From positions 33,930,858-33,994,857 of the forward strand of contig NC_049980.1 of the NCBI RefSeq assembly GCF_000003815.2: a stretch of 64,000 nucleotides of DNA, written 5' to 3'. Below are positions 7,201 to 49,869 of this stretch, piece by piece. Origin of the DNA: Branchiostoma floridae. Lineage: Eukaryota > Chordata > Leptocardii > Amphioxiformes > Branchiostomatidae. Under the pieces are notes generated by a model. The model saw only the letters and a list, made by a program, of their open reading frames with translations. It made no database searches and was not told the DNA's origin. How positions within the stretch are numbered: position 1 is the first letter of the stretch; every line of letters begins with the position of its first letter. The translations under genes were made by a program, and so were the position numbers.

Positions 7201-8823
7201 TTTTACAATTTTCAGTATAGTAGTAGTATCCGTTATTTGATTATAATGCTGCTGGGATCCCTGACACAGGGGAAGGCAGCAGTGGTCAGTGACAGAGATC
7301 TGAAGAGATCTTGTTGAAGAGTAGGTTTTATATCCCAACTATGATTTGATATGCAAAAGAGTTGAAGACAAGTTTTAGTGGTACTTTACCTCTTCCTCCT
7401 CCTGCTCCTTCTCCCTGCGCCTCTCCGGCTGGATGTTGGGCGTGTACATCCCGCTGACCCGCCTCTCGCGATGCGGGATGGTCAGCGGCCGCTCCGAGCC
7501 GTCCCGACCGTCCACGCTCGACGTGGAGTCCAGCCTCCGCCTGGGGATCACCAGCGGGGGAAGGTGGCGCGCAGGCGGTTTGCTGAAAAGGAGAAAAGAT
7601 GTCATGTGTCACGTAGAAGACTGGATATGGTTTTGAAACGGTCAGACGTTTCGGATAGAATCCACTATCCTTCATCAGTGACACTGAAGTGATCTGGAGG
7701 AAACACTTTTTAGTCTTTTATACTCTAACTATGAATGGAGACAATTTCAGATGTCCAACAGGAAACGTTGTTCTTCCAGAACTCTTCAGTGTTACTGACG
7801 AAGGATAGTGGAATCTATCCGAAATGTCTAACCGTTTCCAAAACCATCTCCAGTTGCTTGAGTAACTACTTTTTGGCGTATCTTATTACCTGGATGTCTA
7901 ACCTACATCGACGCATGTAGAAGACTGTCCATAACAGTACTGTCAAGAGAAGAGTCAATGATCATTCTTTTTTTGTACCTCTGAGTATGAAAGGAATGAT
8001 GTACACAAATTACAGACAAGCGAGTAATTTACTACAGGTGAGTCCAACAAGTTAGCTTCATGAAAGGTTCAGAATGTGTTACCGACCTGCTGAAAGGCTC
8101 CGACACCCTTTGTACGGGCGGCGGCTCCTGGAACTGTTTTTGCCCCGAGTCTTCCTTCTTCTCTTCGTTACCGGGTGTCGACTCCTTCTCTGTTACCGCG
8201 GCAACAGGTTTCCCAGTAGTCGCCGCACCCTGTCTCCGCCGACCCAGGTTCGGCACCGCCATGACGCGCTTCCTGCGCCCTGCGACCGTGGCTGACTTCT
8301 GCCCATCTTTGTCAGAAATCTTTGCATCCTTCTGGGTTTTGACGGTTGGAGCACTGCTCTTGCTTTTGTCATCGCTAGAAGCCTTGACGTCTTTCTGACT
8401 TTTGTCTTTTTGACTTTTCACTGCTGCAGCATTGTTTGCAGTCTCATTTTTGTCATTGCTTGACAAAGTGTTGTTGTCAGTGGTACCCGTATCAACATTT
8501 TTGTCAGGAATCTTTTCAGTCGGTCCTGCAGATTCTTCCTTCAGCTTGCTGGATGCTTTGTCTGGTGGTTGAGGAGGTTTTACTGAGGAGTTTGAGTTTG
8601 TTTTCCGAGGCGGCGGTGTGGAGACATTTTTAACTGCAGTTTCAGGCTGCTGCTTGGCTTCCTGCTCGGCTGCTTGAGCGGTCACTTTCTCCTGCTTGTC
8701 GGGAGCTTTTGGCTCCTTGTTGGTGACTTTGGCGGGTGTTTCTTTAGCAGAGGGAGCCTTGCCTCTGGACGCAGCTGCCACGGACTTGACGTTCGGCCGG
8801 AAGACTGCCCTCGCTCGCCGCAT
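1209..8823 (-). CDS. BDP1: BDP1, TFIIIB subunit B'' (SANT domain), nine coding exons
   Basis: B'' is the TFIIIB subunit that joins TBP and BRF at RNA polymerase III promoters in the nucleus. Coding exons on the minus strand are 8087-8823, 7390-7582, 6598-6704, 5993-6118, 5457-5558, 4562-4689, 3744-3893, 2964-3122 and 1209-2320; every junction is GT-AG and phase-compatible, giving 937 aa. The start ATG is at 8823, just inside a splice acceptor, and the N-terminus MRRARAVFRPNVK resembles known B'' starts. The family block MTMADLIYYNPKFN is near residues 330-343, VPQVRVAEDGTIVL near 404-417, and the SANT domain (SSFRKK, then FYKALSTVGTDF and KRTRAQLKAKFKKEEK) spans about 450-511. The tail carries an acidic and basic segment and three copies of a QTVSVVVPTSSVS-like motif. 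The protein is much shorter than the vertebrate one, whose long C-terminal repeat region is absent. Family identity is secure; exon edges are read by eye. Confidence 0.93.
5088..5870. repeat. Intron duplication flanking BDP1 exon 5
   Basis: A segment of about 150 bases (5088-5236), starting ACATCAATTTGGG and ending TTTGTGATG, is repeated in diverged form at 5714-5870. Both copies carry the phrase AAGAATAGTTTACA in the middle. The BDP1 exon at 5457-5558 lies between them, so this is a local direct duplication around an exon. Confidence 0.6.
6907..7135. repeat. Foldback (MITE-like) element in BDP1 intron 2
   Basis: The ends GCTAAACTTTCTT and AAGAAAGTTTAGC are exact reverse complements. The arms continue inward through CACAAAG, a GATCAAATTTTCA block and a GTCTTCAGGATCAATA block, each mirrored on the other side. 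No coding content. It lies between BDP1 exons 2 and 3. Confidence 0.7.
7620..7860. repeat. Foldback element in BDP1 intron 1 (GACGTTTCGGATAG family)
   Basis: The left arm reads CTGGATATGGTTTTGAAACG, then GTCAGACGTTTCGGATAG and AATCCACTATCC. The right arm carries the reverse complement with a few changes. The same module recurs in the window near 18.4, 28.1, 41.5, 42.5, 43.1 and 51.4 kb. Confidence 0.7.
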
Positions 8824-9190
8824 GTTGGCACGGTCCAACGGCACTGGAAAGAACAGAAAATATTGAAGCTTAGCTGGGCCAACTTACTCAACAAGAAACA
8901 GATCAAGCAAAGCTATTCCCTAAAGTGCCAGATGTTTCATTATCTCTATCTTGCATCAGTGACTGAGAATGAAAAACAACAAGTGTAATCTTCTGGCTCT
9001 TGAGACAATTTATCCAGCTGCTTGATTTATTATGATTTATAATGTCCTTTCTGGATGTCTAACATTCAATCAATGTAAAGTCCTATCAGACCTATTTTTG
9101 TTGTTGTTGTTGTTGTTGTCCTCATTTACCGTCTATTATTTCGCTAGACGTGGTCTCTTGGTGCTGAGTAACACATGGTTCGCTTTAGAG

Positions 9191-13772: not shown

Positions 13773-13862
13773 CCAGTTATTGCGAAAGAAAGCAAAAATC
13801 TTGCAAGATCCGAAATTTTCAGCCGTCGGCCGCCATGATGCTTGGAGTGTGAGCGCATGCGC
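13773..13862 (-). other. BDP1: Probable non-coding first exon of BDP1
   Basis: On the minus strand a good donor, AACTGG|GTGAGT, ends an exon-like stretch at 13773. Its natural partner is the acceptor TTTCCAG just upstream of the BDP1 ATG (exon resuming at 8843). The stretch contains a short upstream frame at 13836-13819 encoding MAADG and a stop. If right, the first intron is about 4.9 kb and contains the CACAGTG-ended element. This is an inference from splice signals; no transcript was seen. Confidence 0.45.
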
Positions 13863-14048
13863 GAAGAAATCTCCCACCATGCAGTGCTAATTTTAGGTCA
13901 AAGGTGAATTTAAGGTCAAAAGCCATATCATAGGAGCTGAGGTCAAATCCGCAAAAAAACATGTTGCCGCGATTACGAGGCGTTTAATTGAAGCTACGTA
14001 GACTCCTAGTGGTCAGAGTTTGCACGACAAGAAGATGAGAGCGACTAG
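13773..14048. promoter_or_regulatory. Divergent BDP1/FDPS promoter with an NRF-1-type site
   Basis: The interval between the proposed BDP1 first exon and the FDPS leader ATG is under 300 bp. It holds the perfect palindrome GCGCATGCGC (13853-13862), the classic NRF-1 core, and a YY1-like GCCGCCATGATG near 13829. No TATA box is evident. NRF-1 sites are common in TATA-less, often bidirectional promoters of housekeeping and mitochondrial genes in animals; activity here is inferred. Confidence 0.5.
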
Positions 14049-17000
14049 ATGACCTCTGCTATCGTTGTGAGCCGTCTTGGCCCGCGATTGGCCAGTAGGT
14101 TGATGGTGCGAGCGGCTGGACCAATCACACGTGGGGGAGGCACGTACGAAACATCACCTCATCGCTCAGCTGGACATCAAACGCGCCGACACCTCAGCTG
14201 GAGGAAGAAGACTTTCAAGTCTCAGCTTTGGCAGCACCCCGGGTAAGTTCTGTGTCATTGTGACAGACTGATCACTGTAACTATACTACAAGTAAGATGT
14301 AGCTGGTGTAAGAATCAGTTTAGAAACAACTTAGTGAGGAGGTTCACTTAAAGACATATTGAACCAAGGATGTTTTCAACCTCTTATTAATATATAATCA
14401 AGGAGCTTTTATATCAGAAGCTCCTTGATATAACGTCCTTGTTTGGAGAGACACTTTCCTTACTTCAATTTATGTCCAAGACCTTTGCTTGTCAGGTGTA
14501 GTGTAACATTATATATGTCAGTTTAATAAGAGAATCCAACACTTTCACTTTCATTAAGGTTACACTTGCCTTGACCACAGCTCTCTCACCATACCACCCC
14601 CACCTAACTCAGCTTTTCCCCCTACCCGTTCACCTTCCACCCCCCCCGGACTTCCCTTTGCCCCCCGCTGTACTTCATCTGTGCCCCCGTCCTTCATCTT
14701 TACCCCCGGTGTAATTCCGCTTTTCCCCCGCCCTTCCGCTTTACCCCCCAATGGCCGCCGTCAACCCGAATTTCACGTAGTCGACACGAAAATTGTTCAG
14801 AAAGTAACAATAACGGTCATGAAATAGCCTATTGTCTAGTACACATTCTGGACCACCTTTCTGCCAAGTGGCGTTTCACAACTCCTTCCCAGTCTTAACT
14901 GAGCGGCGGTCTCAAAACATCGGGCAGAAGTCACCTCTCGTAACCCGGAAGTGACAAGCCATACTGGCAAGAAGTTCGGTTCAGCTAAACACCGAATCCC
15001 AATGCTACTGTGTCATCCATGGCCGTGGCCTGGCTGCAGTACTGGCACGGAACGTTATGATGATGATCCATGTCCCATGTAATTTCATCCTCCTACGCAG
15101 GGACATCCAACAGCCAAACTGCCTGTCTGGATGTACCCTGCTCTTTCAACCGTCACTCTTAGTTCCTGTGGACGTCCCCTCCCCCAAACCAGCTGTCAGC
15201 CAATCAGAGAATAGGCCTTTCCATTTTCAAAAGGGGTCTCGCATATGTAAGCGTAAGCTCATTGATATCTATAAGCAGGGCGGTCAGGAACTAAGGGTGA
15301 CGGTTGAGAAAGCAGGGTACATCCAGACATGCGGTTTGGCTGTTGGATGTCCCTGTGAAGGAGGATGATGTAATTTAGGCCAGTTTTGTATCTGACTCTC
15401 TGGTTTGATTTTTCTGTAGAATGCGTAAAAAGAAAAGCAAGCTCACTGTGGGGAAAAAAGGTGCGAGGTACTATAAGAAGAAACGAGCAAGCACAACAAG
15501 GTGATGAGTATTTTTATCTTTAGACCGCCGCTGACGGGGCGCGCTTTTTCAGTAGAGACTGGGAAGGAGTTGTGAAACGCCACAAGGTGGCCCATAAAAG
15601 AGTACCAGAGAATAGGCTGTTATTGTTACTTTCTGAACGATTTTCGTGTCGACTACATGCAATTCGAGTTGACGGCGGCCTTTGGGATCAAAGTGGAAGG
15701 GCGGGGGAAAAGCGGAATTACACCGGGGGTAAAGATGAACGACGGGGGCACAGATGAAGTACAGCGGGGGTCAAGGGGAAGTCCGAGGGGAAAGGTGAAT
15801 GGGTAGGGGACAAGATGAAGGAGTTAGGTGGGGGTGCATGCCACCTATGCACCTTACCACGTTTAACATAACTTTGTGTTGTGCGTGAATGAGTGTTTTG
15901 TATTTCCCCTCTGATGTAGAATTGTTTCAACCGCAAACAGTGCAAAAACTTTCCTTTCCCAATGCACAAAAATAAATGATTTTACCCACCTTCCTACAGC
16001 GCACAGACAGACATGGGAGACAGCAGTAACAAGAAGTTAAAGATGGCGAACCATGACGGAGATGTGAAGCGGTTTGACGAGGTATTTCACCAGCTGGTGA
16101 CGAAACTGATCGACGAGGACGCAAAAAATCCTGAGATCAGCGATGCGATGGTCAGGTTCAGACAGGTGAGAACATCCTCTGTCCGCCCCATCTGAGCTTC
16201 TCCCTGCTGTCTAAACTAGGAGATGGTACCTAAAGACTGGCCTAATTAAATCTTGCTAATAGCAGCCAGCTCCGTGAAGGGGCCACTTACAGTGCCGGAC
16301 AGCAGAGTTTGTGTTATACAGACTACCTACTAAGACAGAAGCAATAGGGTTTTCTCTCTGTCTCTCTTCTCTCCCTCTTTCATTTCTCCTTCCTCACTCA
16401 CTCCTTCCTTCTCTCCTTTTTCGTTCCCTTTCTCCCTCCCTCAATCCCTCACTTTCCTCTCTTCCTCTCACTTTCTCTCTCTTTCTCTCTACCTTAATCC
16501 CTCTCCCTCCCTCTCTATCCCTCTCTACCTAGCCATCTATAAATATCTAGAAATGCTTTTTGGTTTATCCAAGTATTCCAGATCGATCATGGCTACCACA
16601 CTGTCCATAGCCAGTTGTGATTCCTTTTCAGATAATCCCTAATCTGCTGTGATTCCAAACTTTAGTGTGATCCGTGACTACAGAAATATAATAAGTTATT
16701 TCTTTATTTCAGGCTCTCACTGGCCCAAATGACACAGGGACAAACATGAAAAACATAGAATATGTACAATATTTTAAAACAAACTGACGATAATAAACTG
16801 CTTCTATTGCATTCACATTTGTAAAAACAGTTTGACTTCAAATTTAAATGGTTGAAGTACCCAGAAGGGATGATTTTTTTTACACTTGAATATTCACACA
16901 TTTCTCCTTCTTGCTTGTCAGGTATTAGAGTACAACTGTCCAGGTGGGAAGAGGAACAGAGGTCTTAGTGTCATTACATCTTACAGGTGAGCCACCACTT

Positions 17001-20000
17001 GCAAATCCCATTCAAGCAATACTTTGCTGCTTGGCTCAAAAGCAGGAAAACATATACACAAATGTACATTTGATACTATATAGTAATTATTGTGTCTTGT
17101 GCTTTAGAATGTAAGTTTTCCATGTCTATCCTGCAGGTTTCTTGTCAGCAGTGATCAGCTGACAGAAGAGAACATCCACAGAGCCATGGTGGTTGGCTGG
17201 TGCATCGAATGGGTACGGTTATTTACTAATTTCTTCCTATGACTTGTATGAAAATGGAGGTACTGTTTCGGGTCTGTGTGCTTGTGTTTCTGGTTATTTT
17301 TCATCTTGAGAAGCTCTGTATGGATTGTGAGACAAAGACGAAAGTCAAGAATTTTTCTTGGCCTCCTGGCAGCTTTCCTTGGTACTTCAGCAGAACTTCC
17401 ATTTGTCAAATATTTGATAAAGAGAACAATTTGTGTGATTTTCCAAGGTTTACCACTGACAATGTTTTATTCACACTGCAGTTTGTGCATGCCCTGCTAG
17501 AGGGTGCTTATCATCATTAGTGTGTTATATCTGCTATTACACTGCTGATTGACTTATATAAGTCATTCTCTTAGTTTCCCTTCTTTCTTTAAAGAAGACG
17601 AAATGTACATAAATCTGTTTACGTTTTTGAACATGATGTTGACTTTTGTTTCTCATCTATGTTTAATATGAATCTGTTTCTCGTACCCAGTGACTGAGTG
17701 ATGATGATGTTTCTCTTTTTGTTACCAGTTACAAGCTTTCTTCCTGGTTCTTGACGACATAATGGACCAATCACAGACCAGGAGAGGGCAGCCATGCTGG
17801 TACAGAGTTGTATGTACTTCTTTGTTCGTTTTTCTGTTTTGCATCACCAGTAAACTATGCCAGTAAACACACTGGTCTTGTACAGTAAGTGCAAGCTGAC
17901 TAAAAGGTTTGATCTATTCACACTGGGATGGAGTTTGAATCCAGGGTTGCAGTCGTTATACCCCTGTCACAATATCCACGATCTTCTGGCATATCGATGG
18001 AAGATCGGCCATATTTAAGATCGACAGTGGGTTGCGGGTATTTTTCACCCAAAACCCGTCCCTGTCACATATAACATAAGCCATACTTTGTACCTTGTAC
18101 AATTGTTGTGCAGTAAATTTATTATTATAAGTGAGGCTCGGGCGATTGCCGAAGAATTGTCGTCCGAACGATTTTCGTCAAATGTAAAAGGGGTATAAGG
18201 ACAGGACGCTTAGCCGTGGTCCACTGTTGATTTTACCTTTGAAGAGAGCTAGGGAAATTTCTTTGGTACAGTGAACCTGTAAATACTGTACATAGCATCT
18301 GTCTTTTCTGTTAGGACCAGTGGATGACTAGGCCTTCAGCGAGTTTAACTGGTCGAAGATCACTTTCCTTTTCTGATGATAGAAGTTTATGAAGGTTAAA
18401 CATCCAGGTAAACAATATTCAAATACAATTCAACCTCTACAACTGGATAAAAACAAAGATTTACTTCCAGACGTTTCGAGTGACATCCATCGCTCTTCTT
18501 TAGCGTTCCAAGAGAAGAAGTCTGAAAGTAAACCTCCACTTTTATCCAGTTTTAGAGATTGAACTGTATAAGAATAAGTTTCTCATTATGTTTTTTTCAC
18601 ATGAAGTTTGTTTGTGATGTTCCCCTTCAGGAAGAAGTAGGTAACATGGCCATTAACGACGCCTGCTACATCGAGTCCTGCATCTACAGACTTCTGGGGA
18701 GGTTCTGCAGAGGCCAGCCATACTATGTGGACCTGCTCGAGCTATTCCAAGGGGTAAGGGAACTTACTCCAAGGAGTTTTTACAAAAAAAGGGCAATCTT
18801 TGTGTCAGTTGCTATAACTCTTGATCTGGACCTGGATAAATTGGTCGTGGTTCCGTAGACACAGGTCGGGGAATGATCAACCTCGGCTGGGTCGCCCAGG
18901 TGAGGGACTGGGTGTATGGTGATTAAAGGCCTGGAACACCCAGTGACATTAGAGTGTCAACAGCTAAAGGAGTTTTAATAAAACAATAAACAACAACAAA
19001 CAATATTCTAGATATTCTAGAGTAGATAGAGAAGGTTCTGAAGAGTCCAGCTGTACTACTTGAGTATAGATACTGGTAAGCTAAGATTTTATAAGACCTG
19101 TAAAACAGCACATACTATGGAAAAATACTTAGAATTAGATAATTTTGATTTACGCTCGGCAATCAGCAAAATTAGAATTAGTGCCCACCCTCTCGAAATT
19201 GAGAGAGGGCAGTACAAGAGGCTATCTGTGTGTGAAAGAACGTGCAAACAATGTACGTCAAACGTGGTGGAAGACAAATCACATTTTATGTCAAACTGCT
19301 CTTTCTATAATCAAGAAAGAGAAGAGCTGTTCAAAGAGGCCACCAAATTCCACCCAAACTTCCTCACATTCAATGACAAAAAGAAAACAGTTCTCCTTTT
19401 AACATCACAAAACCCACACATAATAGAAAAGGTGGGATCTTTCGTCTTCCACTGTCTTCAAAAAAGGAGTCAAACCCAATAACCCAGGATCTAGAGTTAG
19501 CTGTCACTAGTTTTAGACTAGAGTAGACACTTGTGATATTGTATTTTACACTGGTTGAATCTTGTATGTTACCTGCAATTAGCCCACGGGCAAGAATTTG
19601 CAATAAAACTTGTAACTATGTGGGCCTGCTGGAGCTCTTCCAAGGGATAATGGAACCGGAAATGTTCAGACATAGATTTTTATGACGTATGGAAATCAAT
19701 CTTTACAATCTCATCCCAAGTATCCATCTGAGTTTAAATTAAAATTGTTCTTTTATGATCCACCTAAAATAATTTTCATTCAAAGTCAAAGTCAGTCACA
19801 CAGAACCTCATGAATGAATTAATTGCCAGATCACACTAAAGGATATATAAGAAAATTTTGGCTGAAGCAGCAAATTTTTTTGGATACACATATTTTGGGT
19901 GAGTGCAAAGTGCAAACTAATTTTGCATCAATAGAAGACTTTTAATACAAAGAAAAAAATTCATTACAGTCAATCATGGATTCAGCAACCACTCAAGGGA

Positions 20001-23000
20001 CTCAGGAAAATGGTCGCTCAGGACAGGGTGGGGTTAACTATGTAAAAATGGACGGGGATGTTTTCATGTAGATTATGACTGGAGTTGGCTGCCTGACAAA
20101 GTTTTACTTTATTAACTACAGTTCAGGTCACAGCACATCTGATTAGAACAGTGGCTAACATGCAATCTGAAATGACTTCAACACTTGTTTGTCCCTCACT
20201 GTTTCTGTCCCTGCTTCAGACGACGTACAAGACGATAGTCGGCCAGTCTCTGGACCTCATCACGTCTCCGGATGGGAAGGTCAACCTCAGCAACTTCACG
20301 GAGGAGAGGTAAGGCCAGTGGTGGTTCTGATGATGGGGAGGCCGTACTGTTTGTTTGCAGAGTGATGATGAAATTGATGATAAAATAATGTTGTAAGAGA
20401 AGTGAAAATGATGTGATGAGAATGATGATGGTAATGAGAGGAAAAACTGACTGTTGACTATGTCTGTGTGAGTGTGTGTGAGTGTGTGTGTGTGAGTGTG
20501 TGTGAGTGTGTGTGTGAGTGTGTGTGTGTGAGTGTGTGTGTGTGTGTGAGTGTGTAAGTGTGGGTGTGTGTCTGTGTGTGTGTGTGTGTCTGTGTGTGTG
20601 TGTGTGTCTGTGAGTGAGTGTGTCTGTGTGTGTGTGTTTGTGTCTGTGTGTGTGTGTGTGTGTGTCTCTGTGTGTGTGTGTGTGTCTGTGTGTGTGTGTC
20701 TCTGTGTGTGTCTGTGTGAGTGTGTGTGTGTGTGTGCGTTTGTGCGTTTGTGTGTGAGTGTGTGTGTGTGTGTGTGTGAATGTGCAAAACTTAATCCCAA
20801 TGTGTTGAAATTTACATCTCAAGTGTTATACGATCAAACCTTTGGCAATGTGTGAACACATATTTTGTTTTCAATGTCATAGTGAAGTACATACAGACTG
20901 ATGTGTTTATTTTATGTGCAGGTACAATGCCATAGTGAAGTACAAGACAGCCTTCTACTCCTTCCACCTACCAGTAGCTGCTGCTATGTACATGGTGAGG
21001 CCTTCAGAGGATCCTTCTCATTTCTACTATGAACCGCCCTAAGAATTCTTAGAAGTTCTGTCAGTCTTAGTATGTATGTACATGATAAGAACTTCGGAGG
21101 ATCCTTGTCATGAAAATGTAGAATGTAAGAATTCTTATTGTCTGTTTTAGCATACCCAACATATTGAGGAGAACAGAAATTCAAGATGTGTAGGGAAGAC
21201 TGGTTATCAGATTTTCTGTGGTGAAATGGTCAAATAGACTTAGGGAGAGATGATATGAATGTACCTCATGTCACTTTCATAACTATTACTGTTAACCTAG
21301 TCAAAAAAAGGGAATGAAATACTAGATAATTTGTAGATGGCATCTTTTGTAGAAGTATAAATGAAGCCATGAAACTTCAGAAATGCTGTTGTGTGATTAT
21401 ATTCATCAATTACAAACCCCCTTTTCACGTAACAAATCAGTGAAAAGTTATGTCTATGGATAATTTTGTTGACAATGAGTTGACTGAAAGTTGTTTGCAT
21501 CCCTCCCAGGCTGGCATCACCAGTAAGGAGTCCCATGAAAATGCCAAGACAATTCTTCTGGAGATGGGCAGGTTCTTCCAGATACAGGTGAAGAAGTCTT
21601 GTCACAAATTTCTGTTTTACATGTTATTTCCTCTGTCTGTGCAAGACAGCATGTTTTATACCTAACTGTGAATTGATATGTAGAGAAGGTAAAGACATAG
21701 TTTAGATAGTCCAATAGAAAACAAATGTAAGATAACGTCAAGACAAGAGATTTCCAGTCATCAAAAACAGCTACAAAATCTACCGAATATACCCTAACTA
21801 TGAATTGTAAAGAAGGTATGGACAAAGTTTAGATAGTCCAATGGAAAACAAAAATAAGAGAAGGTCAAGACAAGAGATTTCCAGTCATCGAAATGAGTTG
21901 CAAAATTGACCGAATGGTAGTAATGATTTGTCGTAAGTTATTGTTCACCAGGATGTCTAACCCTAAGACATATATTTCCATTTCAGGATGACTACCTGGA
22001 CTGCTATGGGGACCCGGCGGTGACGGGGAAGGTTGGGACAGACGTAGAGGAGAACAAGTGCAGCTGGCTGGTGGTGCAGGCACTACGGCTGGTCGACGCC
22101 CGGCAACGGACTACACTACAGGTTTGTTTGTTTGTTTGTTTGTTTGTTTGTTTGAGGGAAGGTTGGGACAGACGTGGAGGAGAACAAGTGCAGCTGGCTG
22201 GTGGTGCAGGCACTACGGCTGGTCGACGCCCGGCAACGAGCTACGCTACAGGTTTGTTTGTTTGTTTGTTTGTTTGTGGGAAGGTGGGAACAGGCGTGGA
22301 AGAGAACAAATGCAGCTGGCTGGTGGTGCAGGCGCTACGGCTGGTCGACGCCCGGCAACGGGCTACGCTGCAGGTTTGTTTGTTTGTTTGTTTGTTTGTT
22401 TGTTTGTTTGTTTGTGGGAAGGTCAGAACGGACGTGGAGGAGAACAAGTGCAGCTGGCTGGTGGTGCAGGCGCTACGGCTGGTCGAGGCCCGGCAACGGG
22501 CTACGCTGCAGGTTTGTTTGTTTGTTTGTTTGTTTGTTTGTTTGTTTGTTTGAGGTAAGGTTGGGACAGACGTGGAGGAGAACAAGTGCAGCTGGCTGGT
22601 GGTGCAGGCGCTACGGCTGGTCGACACCCGGCAACGGGCTACGCTGCAGGTTTGTTTGTTTGTTTGTTTGTTTGTTTGTGGGAAGGTGGGAACAGGCGTG
22701 GAGGAGAACAAGTGTAGCTGGCTGGTGGTGCAGGCGCTACGGCTGGTCGACGCCCGGCAACGGACTACACTACAGGTTTGTTTGTTTGTTTGTTTGTTTG
22801 TTCATGAGATGCCCACAGGTATGACTGGTCAACAAGTAACAATACTCACTTCTTTAGCTTTGCTATTTGTTTCTTTTTTTGTGGTAGTAGTAATTAGGAA
22901 GAAGTGGTGTAGGTTTGGGCCTCCTTTCAGCTTGCTCTGAAACTGCAGAGGTATTTTTGTGTTGAAATCTTTTTTTGTGAGTGAACAACAGGTTTCCACC

Positions 23001-25144
23001 ACATTTGTTAAGTGAGTTAGACAGAAATGTAGGCACTGAGGACCTAATTGCATGATTAATGATGGAAATCCCAAAAAGCTATGTTGTCCATAAGACTTTT
23101 TTTTATGGACAACATAGCTTTTTGGGATTTCCATGATTAAGAGGATACATGTAATTTATGGCAGGTGGAACATTTTTAGTTCCAACGACACCCTCGTGAT
23201 GTACCGTTGTGTGGTCTAGTTCCATGTTTGTTACTGTCGTGTAAATTTATCCCGTCCGTAGAAAATTGATGACATCAGAGTCGTTTGCGGCTCGGTTGCC
23301 CGCAGCACTGGGGATCAAATTACCGTCTAATGTTCCCTCGCTCCTGCGGTGACCTCTGGTATTGATTTTGTCTCACAAACTGCATTTCAACGGGCTCAGC
23401 TCTGTGGGTATTGGTGGGGAGGCTGATCCCAGCTATTTAGCCAATATCTGGGTCATTGGGCCAATTTTGTAGCTGGTTTTGATCAGTGGAAATTTGCTCT
23501 GTTTGTTTATCTCTAGGTAAACTTCCTTTTGAGTTTGTTTTGTAAAATAAGTTTGAACACTGGCTCACTTTTATCAAAGTTTCTTGCCTTGCTGATCTCT
23601 CTGAGCTATTTATCCAATATCTGGATCATTGGGCCAATTTTGTAGCTGGTTTTGATCAGTGGAAGTGTACTCTGTTGTTTCTTCTTTACTAGAAGCAAAA
23701 CTTCCTTTTCTATGTTTCTTTTTCAGAAAAGGTTTGAACAGGATTATTGCCATTTGTTGCCAGGTTGCTTCCAGCTATTTATCCAATATCCGGATCATTT
23801 GGCCAATTTTGTAGCTGATTTTGATCAGTGGAAATTTGCTCTGTTTGTTTATCTCTAGGTGAACTTCCTTTTGAGTTTCTTTTTCAGAAGAGGTTTGAAC
23901 AGGCTAGGCATCATTGTTGTTTGTAGGTTCATCTTAGCTCTTTGTCCAATATTCGGATCATTTGGCCAGTTATATGGGTGTTTTTGATCAGTGGAAATGT
24001 GCTCCACTGTTTTTTCTTTACTAGAAGCAAAGCTTCCTTCCAAAAGAAGACCACAAAAGAAGCAAAAGTTTCTTGTTCAGAATTTTTGAACACCTGGCTT
24101 ACTGTTTTTGCCATTTGTGGGCATGTTCATCTTGTGGGCATGTTTATCCAATACTGTAAATGCACTTAACGTGGGGATTTCATTTTGCGGTTGCGGGAAA
24201 AGGGACATTTCGCGGTGGTTTTAAGTTCACGGTAGCACCATGCACTGCAGTCTCTTACTGCCTTGAAAAAATGTTTGCGGTGGTTTTAAGATTGCGGTGT
24301 AGCGGCTACCGCAAAAAAACGCGAATATTAAACCACCCGAAATTTTCTGCATTTACAGTATTCAGAAAAATAGCATGTGGAATTCACTGAAGCAGAGGAC
24401 AGGGAAGAAAACTTGAATACGACTGTATTCATTTCGTGAAACTGAGAGGCCTCAGGCTTTGTTTTCATTTTATATTCCACTCAAGTCTGTTTGGAAAATG
24501 TCCGACAACCCAACAATTAATTAGGTGTAGACTTACTTGCAATTATAGCCGTTCACTCCTTTTTGCCCCGGCTTAGAGGTGAGAGAAGCGGTTAGTTCAA
24601 CACATGGATGCATGGATCGGTCAATTTAACAAAACTCTTCTTATAGCCCTTCTGTACGCACGATTACGCAATCAGCTTGCGTGGCCGAGCAGTCCTACGC
24701 GCTGGGTGGATATAGCGATTTGCTTTTGCAGCCGTGGATCGTGGGTTCGAACCCCACTTGTAACAATTTTTTTTCTTTGTTAGGCAAATCTCATGTAATG
24801 TTTTTTTAATAGAAGACAGACTAGTTCAGTAATTCGATGTTTAAAAACTCTTTTTTCATGTGATTTTGTTTAACATCCAGGCTTTTTCCAAAATACGCAC
24901 CGGCCAGCTTTTCTCAGAAGCTTTCTTGTTTGTTCTTCTTCAGGAAAACTACGGTCAGAACGACCCCGCCAAGGTTGCCGCGGTGAAGCAGCTTTACCAG
25001 GAGTTACGTCTCCAGGACGAGTTTTGGAAATTTGAGGAGAGCAGCTACTCCCAGCTGATGCAGCTGATCAACTCTTCCAGCCTGGACCTGCCGAAGGACA
25101 TGTTCGTCGAGTTCGCGCGCAAGATTTACAAGCGGCAGAAATAA
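14049..25144 (+). CDS. FDPS: FDPS, farnesyl pyrophosphate synthase, 12 exons with in-frame mitochondrial-type leader
   Basis: The enzyme condenses IPP with DMAPP and then GPP to give C15 farnesyl diphosphate in the mevalonate pathway. Exons are 14049-14242, 15420-15500, 16000-16165, 16922-16986, 17137-17212, 17729-17809, 18631-18753, 20220-20308, 20922-20994, 21510-21587, 21987-22121 and 24944-25144; all are GT-AG and phase-compatible, total 453 aa. The internal ATG at 16013 (good context, GACATGG) gives 357 aa, close to the cytosolic animal enzyme. In that numbering GGKRNRG is at 59-65, the first Asp-rich motif DDIMD at 107-111 with the chain-length Phe pair at 102-103, RRGQ follows, KTAFYSF is near 205, the second motif DDYLD is at 247-251, GKVGTD follows, and the end is KIYKRQK. 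The 96-residue leader is Arg-rich with no acidic residue for the first 30 positions or so. A TAG codon directly precedes the first ATG. AATAAA is at 25162. Confidence 0.96.
14592..15835. repeat. 1.2 kb long inverted repeat (foldback) spanning FDPS exon 2
   Basis: Outer arms at about 14592-14913 and 15521-15835 are inverted copies; for example GGTGTAATTCCGCTTTTC on the left is mirrored by GAAAAGCGGAATTACACC on the right. Inner arms at about 15072-15166 and 15284-15375 are also inverted copies (GGGACATCCAACAGCCAAAC and its complement). Between outer and inner arms the two sides differ: the right side (15376-15520) contains the exon 2 cassette, and the left side (14914-15071) is unrelated and contains CCCGGAAGTGAC. 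The structure lies in FDPS introns 1 and 2. Confidence 0.75.
16340..16530. repeat. CT-rich polypyrimidine tract
   Basis: About 190 bases of imperfect TCTC, CCCT and CTTT repeats in FDPS intron 3. Low complexity; the open frame across it (Ser/Leu/Pro-rich) is an artefact. Confidence 0.8.
18393..18570. repeat. Foldback repeat in FDPS intron 6
   Basis: The left half contains CAACTGGATAAAAACAAAG and CCAGACGTTTCGAGTGACAT. The right half contains AGTCTGAAAGTAAACC and TTTTATCCAGTTTTAGAGAT, an approximate inverse. It shares the GACGTTTCG core and the CATCCAGGTAAACAATATTC border with copies near 41.5 and 43.1 kb. Confidence 0.6.
18960..19612 (+). mobile_element. LINE remnant in FDPS intron 7 (CR1/L2-like 3' end)
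   Basis: The plus-strand frame 19060-19482 (140 aa) reads [38 protein letters not shown], then a C-x2-C ... H-x4-C zinc-type pattern (CKQC, SHFMSNC). This is the usual C-terminal tail of CR1/L2-like elements. A non-coding tail runs to an AATAAAAC stretch at about 19612. The insert sits between real FDPS exon 7 and its decayed copy at 19613. Confidence 0.7.
19613..19657 (+). pseudogene. Decayed partial copy of FDPS exon 7 (3' edge)
   Basis: CTATGTGGGCCTGCTGGAGC and the following TCTTCCAAGGG repeat the end of exon 7 (18723-18753) with a few changes; the copy would read [10 protein letters not shown]. The splice donor is broken: the real GGG|GTAAGGGAAC has become GGG|ATAATGGAAC. It probably arose by tandem duplication and was later separated from exon 7 by the LINE insertion. 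Confidence 0.75.
20460..20780. repeat. (TG)n-rich microsatellite in FDPS intron 8
   Basis: About 320 bases of TGTG with interspersed TGAG and TGTC units. It creates long artificial open frames on both strands (Thr/His on minus, Val/Cys on plus), which are not genes. Confidence 0.9.
20870..20898 (+). pseudogene. Partial copy of the 5' edge of FDPS exon 9
   Basis: CAATGTCATAGTGAAGTACA repeats the start of exon 9 (CAATGCCATAGTGAAGTACA, from 20925), only about 50 bases upstream of the real acceptor. The copy has lost its AG acceptor, reading TTTTCAATG where the real site reads GCAGGTACAATG. A small tandem duplication of the intron/exon boundary. Confidence 0.65.
21066..21116 (+). pseudogene. Partial copy of the 3' edge of FDPS exon 9
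   Basis: TATGTACATG followed by ATAAGAACTTCGGAGGATCC repeats the exon 9 end and start of intron 9 (TATGTACATG|GTGAGG then CCTTCAGAGGATCC, 20985-21020). The donor GT is changed to AT, so the copy is not spliceable. Distance to the original is about 80 bases. Confidence 0.7.
21672..21905. repeat. Two-copy tandem duplication in FDPS intron 10
   Basis: A unit of about 120 bases is repeated twice, containing AGTTTAGATAGTCCAAT and GACAAGAGATTTCCAGTCAT. The copies begin near 21672 and 21790. Confidence 0.75.
22026..22802 (+). repeat. Six-copy tandem array of the FDPS exon 11 3' part plus (GTTT)n
   Basis: The last 96 bases of exon 11 (GGGAAGGTTGGGACAGACGT onward) plus a (GTTT)n run at the intron start recur. 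Copies start near 22026 (the real exon), 22156, 22278, 22416, 22554 and 22680, with spacings of 122-138 bases. Every copy keeps the CAG|GTTTGT donor, but only the first has an upstream acceptor. Copies 3 and 6 share GGTGGGAACAGGCGTGGA and copies 1 and 6 share GGACTACACTACAG, hinting at block duplication or gene conversion. Using donor 3 or 4 would keep the reading frame (252 or 390 bases later). Confidence 0.92.
23056..23140. repeat. Near-perfect hairpin with 36 bp arms
   Basis: ATGGAAATCCCAAAAAGCTA then TGTTGTCCATAA is followed, after a loop of about 10 T-rich bases, by its reverse complement. Arms are about 36 bases with one mismatch (G/C near the base). It sits in FDPS intron 11 and could be a tiny foldback element or a small-RNA hairpin. 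No direct repeat at its borders is obvious. Confidence 0.8.
23430..24130. repeat. Four diverged tandem copies, unit about 170 bp
   Basis: The phrase GCTATTTATCCAATATC, CGGATCATTTGGCC and TTTTGATCAGTGGAAAT recurs near 23434, 23607, 23775 and 23936, each followed by CTTCCTTTTGAGTTTCTTTT or a variant and GGTTTGAACA. Non-coding; in FDPS intron 11. Confidence 0.8.
24150..24362. repeat. MITE with ATACTGTAAATGCA / TGCATTTACAGTAT ends
   Basis: The two termini are exact reverse complements. Inside are GCGGTGGTTTTAAG and related words in both orientations (for example TAAACCACCCGAAA). A fragment of the same family lies at 31818-31915. In FDPS intron 11. Confidence 0.75.
24672..24766 (+). pseudogene. 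tRNA-like sequence (Leu/Ser-like, degenerate) or tRNA-derived SINE head
   Basis: It has a TGGCCGAGCAGTCC A-box region, a long variable-arm-like middle, and a good T arm, GTGGGTTCGAACCCCAC (B box GGTTCGAACC). The 5' and 3' segments expected to form the acceptor stem do not pair well (GCTTGCG against TTGTAAC). It is therefore more likely a pseudogene or SINE head than a working tRNA. Confidence 0.45.
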
Positions 25145-25180: not shown

Positions 25181-25256
25181 CAACTCCTCCCACCAGGACC
25201 TGCCCAAGGACATGTTTGTCGAGTTTGCACGCAAGATTTACAAGCGGCAGAAATAA
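25181..25256 (+). pseudogene. Tandem copy of the FDPS C-terminal coding end
   Basis: From about CAACTCCTCC onward it re-encodes [19 protein letters not shown] and a stop, 112 bases after the original (25069-25144). In the GAC CTG ... TAA part the differences from the real exon are third-position synonymous changes. CACCAG precedes GACCTG and could act as an acceptor. It lies in the FDPS 3' UTR. Confidence 0.8.
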
Positions 25257-47985: not shown

Positions 47986-48589
47986 TGAGAAGTTGTCATT
48001 TACAACACAATGTACAAACCTCATTCTGTCCAAGACCATACAAGAAATGCAGAAAACTACAGAGCCTTTGCTTACAAGAACACCTCATTGTAGATTCATC
48101 TTCCACTTTCATTAAATATATTCATAGATACGTCAATCAACTATGTGTATGTTAAAAATATACATGGAGTTGTACAAAACCTCATGCAAATATACTCTAC
48201 TATACACAATTTCATCATGTAGTGGACATCGATGTTGTATTGTTTATTATACCTCAGTAAAAATGTAAAAAAAAAAGAACAAAGTGTAATGTAAGATTGA
48301 AAATACCATTTCCTAGGGCCCAACTTACATGAGATTTCAGAAACACTTACCGGAACGCGTTCTTGAAAACAGTTCCTGAAACTCATTTTTGAAAAACGTT
48401 TTTTCTTTACAAGATTCAAGAGGTAGGAACTTGTTTTGGACACTCTGAGTGCATTTCAAACCTGTTGTAGAAAAATTCAATAAAAATGTTTTGTTTTCAT
48501 CCTTAAAAGCAGGCTTTTTGCAGAGTGTCTTTGAAAATGCGTTTCGGGAATTATTTTTGAAGCCGCATGTAAAGCGTGCCCACTGACGG

Positions 48590-49682
48590 CCATTTGTAGT
48601 ACACGGCTGTACATGTATGTCTGACGGCCATGTGTAGTGCACGGCTGTACATGTATGTCTGACGGCCATGTGTAGTGCACGGCTGTACATGGATGTCTGA
48701 CGGCCATGTGTAGTGCACGGCTGTACATGGATGTCTGACGGCCATGTGTAGTGCACGGCTGTACATGTATGTCTGACGGCCATGTGTAGTGCCCGGCTGT
48801 ACATGTATGCCTGACGGCCATGTGTAGTGCACAGCTATACTGTACATGTATGTCTGACGGCCATGTGTAGTGCACGGCTGTACATGTATGTCTGACGGCC
48901 ATGTGTAGTGCACGGCTGTACATGTATGCCTGACGGCCATGTGTAGTGCACGGCTGTACATGTATGTCTGACGGCCATGTGTAGTGCACGGCTGTACATG
49001 TATGTCTGACGGCCATGTGTAGTACACGGCTGTACATGTATGCCTGGCGGCCATGTGTAGTGCACGGCTGTACATGTATGCCTGACGGCCGTGTGTAGTG
49101 CACGGCTGTACATGTATGCCTGACGGCCATGTGTAGTGCACGGCTGTACATGTATGCCTGACGGCCATGTGTAGTGCACGGCTGTACATGTATGTCTGAC
49201 GGCCATGTGTAGTGCACGGCTGTACATGTATGTCTGACGGCCATGTGTAGTGCACGGCTGTACATGTATGTCTGACGGCCATGTGTAGTACACGGCTGTA
49301 CATGTATGCCTGGCGGCCATGTGTAGTGCACGGCTGTACATGTATGCCTGACGGCCGTGTGTAGTGCACGGCTGTACATGTATGCCTGACGGCCATGTGT
49401 AGTGCACGGCTGTACATGTATGCCTGACGGCCATGTGTAGTGCACGGCTGTACATGTATGTCTGACGGCCATGTATGCCTGACGGCCATGTGTAGTGCAC
49501 GGCTGTACATGTATGTCTGACGGCCATGTGTAGTGCACGGCTGTACATGTACATGTATGTCTGACGGCCATGTGTAGTGCACGGCTGTACATGTATGTCT
49601 GACGGCCATGTGTAGTACACGGCTGTACATGTATGTCTGATAGCCATGTGTAGTGCACGGCTGTACATGTATGTATGTCCGA
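48590..49682. repeat. 38 bp minisatellite, about 28 copies
   Basis: The unit is ACGGCCATGTGTAGTGCACG followed by GCTGTACATGTATGTCTG, repeated with few changes (T/C at one site gives TATGTC or TATGCC). A block of seven units (266 bp) is itself duplicated: the variant GCCTGGCGGCC is at 49041 and again at 49307. One unit is truncated near 49467 and one carries an extra ACATGT near 49550. Because 38 is not a multiple of three and the unit has no minus-strand stop, all three minus frames stay open, giving artificial frames up to 427 aa. Confidence 0.95.
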
Positions 49683-49869
49683 CGGAGACCGGGAACTGAC
49701 ATTCCTGTGGCCATTACCAAAATGAAGTCTGACATCAATAAAAAATGACCCACTTTGTTTGCTTCATCAAAACACGGGAAGTGATTCATGGGGAACACAC
49801 TAAACCAGACCCAATCATGTTCACAGACAGGCAAACATAGCCTCCTTAACAGGCTATATTGTCAGGCCT

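Follow-up and report, generated by a model that had tools for sequence, protein, structure and literature searches.

A single FDPS gene in Branchiostoma floridae likely encodes two proteins, and its apparent cassette exon is probably a transposon relic

The question raised by this locus is how one FDPS gene could supply its enzyme to different compartments of the cell, and whether a small cassette exon takes part in the choice. The window, i.e., the whole stretch of DNA that was analysed (64,000 nucleotides, C2:33930858-33994857), holds an intact FDPS gene, and the genome searches covered the whole assembly, 513 Mb in 431 contigs. An 11-exon model, composed of exon 1 and exons 3-12 with the putative "exon 2" left out, encodes 357 residues from the ATG at 16013 (exons 3-12), or 426 with the leader (Table 1). 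The best PDB matches of a hand-joined 164-residue N-terminal peptide were FDPS structures (E about 1e-47), which we take to be the avian and human enzymes. When the whole genome was searched with the 357-residue protein, 18 candidates were scored and 16 matched, all 16 inside this gene. FDPS appears to be single-copy in this assembly and, as every match falls within one gene, all compartments would have to be supplied from it. The intact catalytic body is as expected of a dual-targeted FDPS.

Table 1. Positions of the features of the FDPS locus within the window
Feature	Position	Strand	Basis or remark
NRF1-like palindrome GCGCATGCGC	13853..13862	+	sole exact copy in 64 kb, 0.01 expected
ZNF143-like motif, one mismatch	13872..13886	+	sole window copy at one mismatch or fewer
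AGGTCA half-sites: DR1-like 13895, ERRE-like 13910	13895..13918	+	consensus match
5-codon upstream ORF, TGA overlaps leader ATG as ATGA	14035..14052	+	sequence
FDPS exon 1, Arg-rich leader, 64 codons plus 2 nt	14049..14242	+	splice sites, frame; sole genome match is itself
Left 5-bp flank CATAC, probable decayed target-site duplication	14590..14594	.	4/5 match to 15837-15841
Non-autonomous TIR (foldback-like) DNA transposon insertion, 1,242 bp	14595..15836	.	arms, dispersed relatives
Left inverted-repeat arm	14595..14902	+	82.4% to right arm, gaps counted
Nested hairpin insertion	15086..15367	.	9-bp duplication ATGTAATTT at 15077-15085 and 15368-15376
Transposon intron end, 3' splice site and open-frame start, homologous stretch	15368..15487	+	88.3% to L003 (C16 element) 1800-1919
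Putative cassette exon 2	15420..15500	+	15420-15487 transposon sequence; 15488-15500 and donor outside homology
Right inverted-repeat arm	15549..15836	-	alignment to left arm and C16 element
Right 5-bp flank CATGC	15837..15841	.	flank comparison
FDPS exon 3, internal ATG at 16013	16000..16165	+	splice sites, gene model
FDPS exon 4	16922..16986	+	gene model, PDB match
FDPS exon 5	17137..17212	+	gene model, PDB match
FDPS exon 6, first DDxxD-type motif	17729..17809	+	gene model, splice scores
FDPS exon 7	18631..18753	+	gene model
FDPS exon 8	20220..20308	+	gene model
FDPS exon 9	20922..20994	+	gene model
FDPS exon 10	21510..21587	+	gene model
FDPS exon 11, second DDxxD-type motif	21987..22121	+	gene model
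FDPS exon 12 with stop	24944..25144	+	gene model

The initial annotation described a leader exon that follows an in-frame TAG before 14049 and ends in GG ahead of a GTAAGT donor at 14242, and the letters agree with both limits. Exon 3 starts after CAG at 16000, and both the direct join from exon 1 and the join through exon 2 are open into it, as had been claimed, placing leaders of 69 and 96 residues, respectively, before MGDSS. Such an extension, in frame at the N-terminus and attached through valid splice sites, is a feature of a dual-targeted FDPS. The 69-residue leader contains 12 basic and 2 acidic residues, and its start was correctly described as acid-free, the first acidic residue being E34. 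The hydrophobic moment reaches its maximum of 0.63 in residues 1-30, a value attained by 130 of 5000 shuffles. This basic, acid-poor and apparently amphipathic start also resembles what a dual-targeted FDPS should carry.

To set this exon against chance, 2000 first-order Markov sequences of 2.1 kb were searched for leaders 40 codons long or longer whose donor has the needed phase; the charge rule demanded a net charge of at least +9 and an acid-free stretch over residues 1-30. Without the charge rule, a donor within 3 bits of that of exon 1 was found in 149/2000 sequences and one as good in 13/2000. With the rule added, the counts were 2/2000 (donor up to 3 bits weaker) and 0/2000 (donor as good), and all these counts flatter exon 1, because the donor matrix was a vertebrate one and the charge rule was set after the leader had been seen. 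Neither the other splice matrices nor the motif consensuses were trained on B. floridae. In the real window, on both strands, four leaders have as good a donor and exon 1 alone has the required charge. Exon 1 beats chance on donor, phase and charge combined, and the genome search with it returned one match, exon 1 itself. It is a credible leader, probably real and of an already known type, and we consider its translation quite probable. The literature matches listed include no report of an amphioxus FDPS leader.

The limits given for the second exon were also accurate, with AG at 15418-15419, 81 nt in frame and GTGATG after them. At the sensitivity of the search, exon 2 occurs in two places of the genome, itself and C16:13100851-13100918 (85% over bases 1-68), and a search with the longer frame found at C16 (six candidates scored) led to the same two places. 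Its interpretation as a host exon was rejected, since the sole other match in the genome lies inside a transposon. The last 13 bases (15488-15500) and the donor gave no alignment to the C16 element; as the alignment stops at 15487, the 3' splice site and most of the letters are transposon, and the donor comes from another source. This donor could have been supplied by a relative of the element that ends the exon differently and is missing from the assembly. Transposon-derived over 68 of its 81 nt, as an exonised transposon would be, "exon 2" is, judged by its letters, not a host exon by origin, and the cassette exon is probably a transposon relic.

The match at C16 belongs to a 9,739-bp element (C16:13099936-13109674) with the same ends as the insertion in the window, with inverted repeats 97.7% identical over 343 bp (gaps counted) and with a flanking 6-bp duplication, CTGTAT. 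In this element, a 3' splice site matching that of exon 2 opens a stop-to-stop frame of 97 codons, or 93 from a Met directly after the splice site, and two further long frames have 329 and 849 codons; such a larger relative, with shared ends and extended open frames, is what a non-autonomous TIR transposon should have. No transposase was recognised in it above threshold, the 849-codon frame giving only a TNP-like RNase H match with E 0.0054 and 17.5 bits versus a cut-off of 24.6. A 267-residue piece, composed of two exons joined by eye, gives a match to the YqaJ nuclease domain at 23.2 bits (cut-off 22, E 9e-5). Protein family searches with exon 2 and the longer C16 frame gave no credible match, the best being a PHROG at E 0.017. 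Capture of a host exon, as in Pack-TIR elements, is disfavoured because the C16 relative reads the segment as the start of the element's own frame. A C2H2 zinc-finger frame was also observed inside the element, on the opposite strand.

The insertion in FDPS intron 1 has the terminal inverted repeats of a TIR transposon, and also the dispersed genome copies: the left arm gave 159 first-look candidates, 40 of them were scored and 40/40 match, namely the arm itself and 39 others at 85-89%. Sixteen stretches around matched arm places and the C16 element made up 17 compared sequences, which were chosen for the arms and so all contain them. The window copy, the C16 element and 12/16 fetched stretches each show both ends of the element. 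The segment homologous to exon 2 is present in one of the 17 (C16 only), a count to be read knowing that some fetched stretches hold only one end. Among 13 relatives, nine have exact flanking duplications of 5 bp, two of 6 bp and one of 4 bp, and one has none; the flanks of the window copy match at four of five positions and form no exact target-site duplication. Arm identity within a copy, gaps not counted, is 97.6-99.7% in 13 relatives (in one of them measured over just 113 bases); the window copy, at 91.8%, looks older because its arms are less alike.

The left arm contains subrepeats with 22- and 41-bp periods, and three 41-nt copies are found in the relative stretch L002; such internally repetitive TIRs are a foldback-like trait. 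A second hairpin is nested within the insertion, with inner arms (15085-15168 and 15285-15368) of 92% identity, and its site in the C16 relative is a single uninterrupted ATCTAATTT. A 92.8% copy of this nested hairpin (L024 1792-2050) immediately adjoins a further copy of the outer element. No report of this TIR element was present among the literature matches listed, and viral contigs scanned for one exact 30-base arm pattern gave no match.

Overall, we consider it likely that one FDPS gene gives rise to two proteins and that exon 2 is an intronic transposon relic. Transcription would start just upstream of 14049, below the NRF1- and ZNF143-like sites, and normal splicing, for which the sites are present in the sequence, would join exon 1 to exon 3. 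Initiation at the weak ATG at 14049 would then yield a precursor of 426 residues whose first 69 form an arginine-rich mitochondrial leader, while ribosomes scanning past it would reach the strong ATG at 16013 and make the 357-residue cytosolic or peroxisomal enzyme. Exon 2 descends from a transposon frame, a fragment of which would have been rearranged and brought into the intron by the non-autonomous inverted-repeat element, with a weak donor lying beyond it by chance. One half of the initial reading, a leader with a strong internal ATG for dual targeting, is upheld by the sequence and by a known property of FDPS. The other half, exon 2 as a regulated, redirecting cassette, is not supported: the exon is a transposon-frame fragment that sits in a hairpin insertion, with its donor past the homology and no excess of conservation against its one relative, and the nuclear-like basic patch suggested for its product found no positive support.

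Exon 2 might nevertheless be a genuine exonised transposon exon, included at least at a low level. It would place 27 basic-rich residues after the leader, and translation of the 1-2-3 form could also begin at an extra ATG within the exon (in frame, G at -3), giving a very basic protein that lacks the leader. Its splice scores (s3 5.6, s5 3.1) are within the range of FDPS exons 3-12 (s3 2.9 to 10.8, s5 -0.8 to 7.2), which makes some inclusion plausible. A splice pair as good, enclosing an open frame of length divisible by three, was found in only 9/1000 Markov introns. It recurs six times across the two strands of the real window; exon 2 is one of these cases, and another coincides with the true exon 10 in a different frame. 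The sites and open frame of exon 2 are better than chance, for which transposon descent is the likely cause; they fit descent from a working exon, and the 3' splice site is common to the transposon's open frame. Against this stand a weak donor (T at +5) past the break in homology and a position between pairing arms. According to PMC2911107, DNA transposons are among the elements exonised as cassette exons, and in vertebrates and mammals such exons mostly undergo alternative splicing, but the level of exonisation in invertebrates is given as very low.

Conservation gives exonised use of exon 2 no help. Exon 2 and C16 differ at 10/68 sites, versus 4/52 in the adjoining upstream intron, and the changed codons comprise four non-synonymous and two synonymous ones; conservation of exon 2 does not exceed that of the neighbouring transposon intron, so this one comparison shows no sign of constraint. 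Pairing of the arms around the exon should favour skipping. However, inverted intronic Alu repeats can shift exon choice either way, and in RABL5 the pairing of two Alus reduces skipping (PMC11263572), so paired arms need not cause skipping. Judged from these sequence features, a genuine exonised exon is rather unlikely, as is any inclusion of exon 2, and a functional role would be less likely still. It is very improbable that an N-terminal coding exon of a transposon was recruited as an optional FDPS exon, giving a third, highly basic form through the inherited 3' splice site and ATG, with the hairpin keeping the exon optional and maybe producing a circular RNA.

Two-protein expression also depends on how the start codons are used. 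Their contexts had been correctly reported, the ATG at 14049 having T at -3 and that at 16013 having G at -3 and G at +4. The upstream ORF at 14035 starts in a better context (A at -3) than the leader ATG, and five more upstream ATGs (13835-13961) precede it if transcription begins above 13835. In neither spliced form was an out-of-frame ATG found from 14049 to 16013; all are in the FDPS frame, as would be needed for leaky scanning to reach the internal ATG. Exon 1 could instead be 5' untranslated or poorly translated, with the ATG at 16013 alone in use and the basic frame an accident. The weak ATG context and the overlapping upstream ORF would suit such an exon, and so would its codon usage, which is not FDPS-like (score -0.221 versus 0.203 for the gene on its own table) and, reached by 48% of synonymous nulls, gives no coding support. 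Against an accidental frame stand the 2000 nulls, none of which combines donor, phase and charge, the mitochondrial forms of FDPS known elsewhere and the failure to find a second FDPS gene, and we regard it as unlikely.

The arms, of about 300 nt on both sides of exon 2, might drive back-splicing into an 81-nt circular RNA, or leave a double-stranded, edited intron, in place of a protein isoform. The insertion region as RNA (1256 nt) folds at -760.7 kcal/mol, a raw energy without shuffle control, and neither Rfam families at gathering score nor tRNAs (bacterial setting) were detected within the window. An 81-nt sequence is small for a single-exon circular RNA. Inverted intronic Alus are described as promoting circular RNA in humans (PMC11263572), but the small size argues against a circle here, and the chance of this outcome seems slim.

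The names NRF1, ZNF143, DR1 and ERRE were given to the upstream motifs by their presumed consensuses. Exon 1 sits 160-200 bp downstream of the NRF1- and ZNF143-like motifs (about 190 bp for the former), which are spaced ten bases apart; a ZNF143-like motif is expected 0.22 times in the window and 21/100 shuffles hold one, and the ERRE-like pattern has six occurrences in the window. That transcripts start just upstream of 16013 and exon 1 is part of something else found no positive point in its favour and is hardly probable, given the promoter-like motifs above exon 1 and, 13 nt ahead of the ATG, a good 3' splice site (16000).

The preferred reading, one gene with a long and a short product, has precedents. 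Martin et al. reportedly described in 2007 an FDPS with an optional mitochondrial N-terminal extension. Later papers cite these authors for Drosophila (PMC6721070), for cytosolic and peroxisomal location (PMC6021172) and in a general sentence on the enzyme (PMC8382914), and another places FDPS predominantly in peroxisomes (PMC7677142). The closest likeness is to Arabidopsis FPS1L/FPS1S, where one gene gives an extended long form, sent to mitochondria, and an unextended short form; the extension stated in PMC3492304 has 41 residues, whereas the one predicted here has 69.

The insertion is likened to FB and Galileo by structure, not sequence. Galileo is described in PMC3573991 as having long, internally repetitive TIRs resembling Foldback; the amphioxus family shares long inverted repeats, internal tandem subrepeats and a rearranged interior, but its duplications are mostly of 5 bp. 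As in exonised transposable elements and Pack-TIR elements (PMC2911107 and PMC8277862), a coding piece with usable splice sites lies in a TIR element in a host intron. The piece differs from Pack-TIR cargo, as presented there, in being the transposon's own frame instead of a captured host exon, and it is known from DNA alone. ISL2EU transposons carry a YqaJ exonuclease ORF and AT duplications of 2 bp according to PMC4482050. The 9.7-kb C16 relative also encodes a YqaJ domain, but the duplications of this family are mostly 5-6 bp and of varied sequence, not short and fixed; membership of ISL2EU/PHIS was rejected, and the element was not placed in ISL2EU because the duplications of that group are AT.

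If the leader is confirmed, the supply of FPP to mitochondria and cytosol from a single gene would extend to this animal. The locus also calls for caution, as a textbook-looking cassette exon can be a coding fragment of a transposon that arrived with its own splice site, and it offers a clean test case for the effect of hairpin-forming insertions on the splicing of a core metabolic gene.

Further features of the window were observed. Local partial copies exist for the 3' ends of three FDPS exons (7, 11 and 12). The last 32 bp of exon 7 have a copy in the next intron at 19615-19646 (90.6%), and the last 76 bp of exon 12, stop included, have a second copy just downstream at 25181-25256 (89.5%). 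A tandem repeat at 21987-22802 takes in the last 96 bp of exon 11 together with the adjoining 5' splice site and GTTT run, and has five further copies (TRF period 138, 6.0 copies); the copies are 89.6-95.8% identical, and the repeats provide six similar donors, at 22121, 22251, 22373, 22511, 22649 and 22775. About 5 kb upstream of FDPS and oriented away from it, an open frame on the minus strand at 8032-8883 contains MRRARAVFRPNVKS, which we take to resemble the start of BDP1. Finally, the stretch 48583-49685 is taken up by a large tandem array of a 38-bp unit, in some 23 copies (95%) and an additional block.
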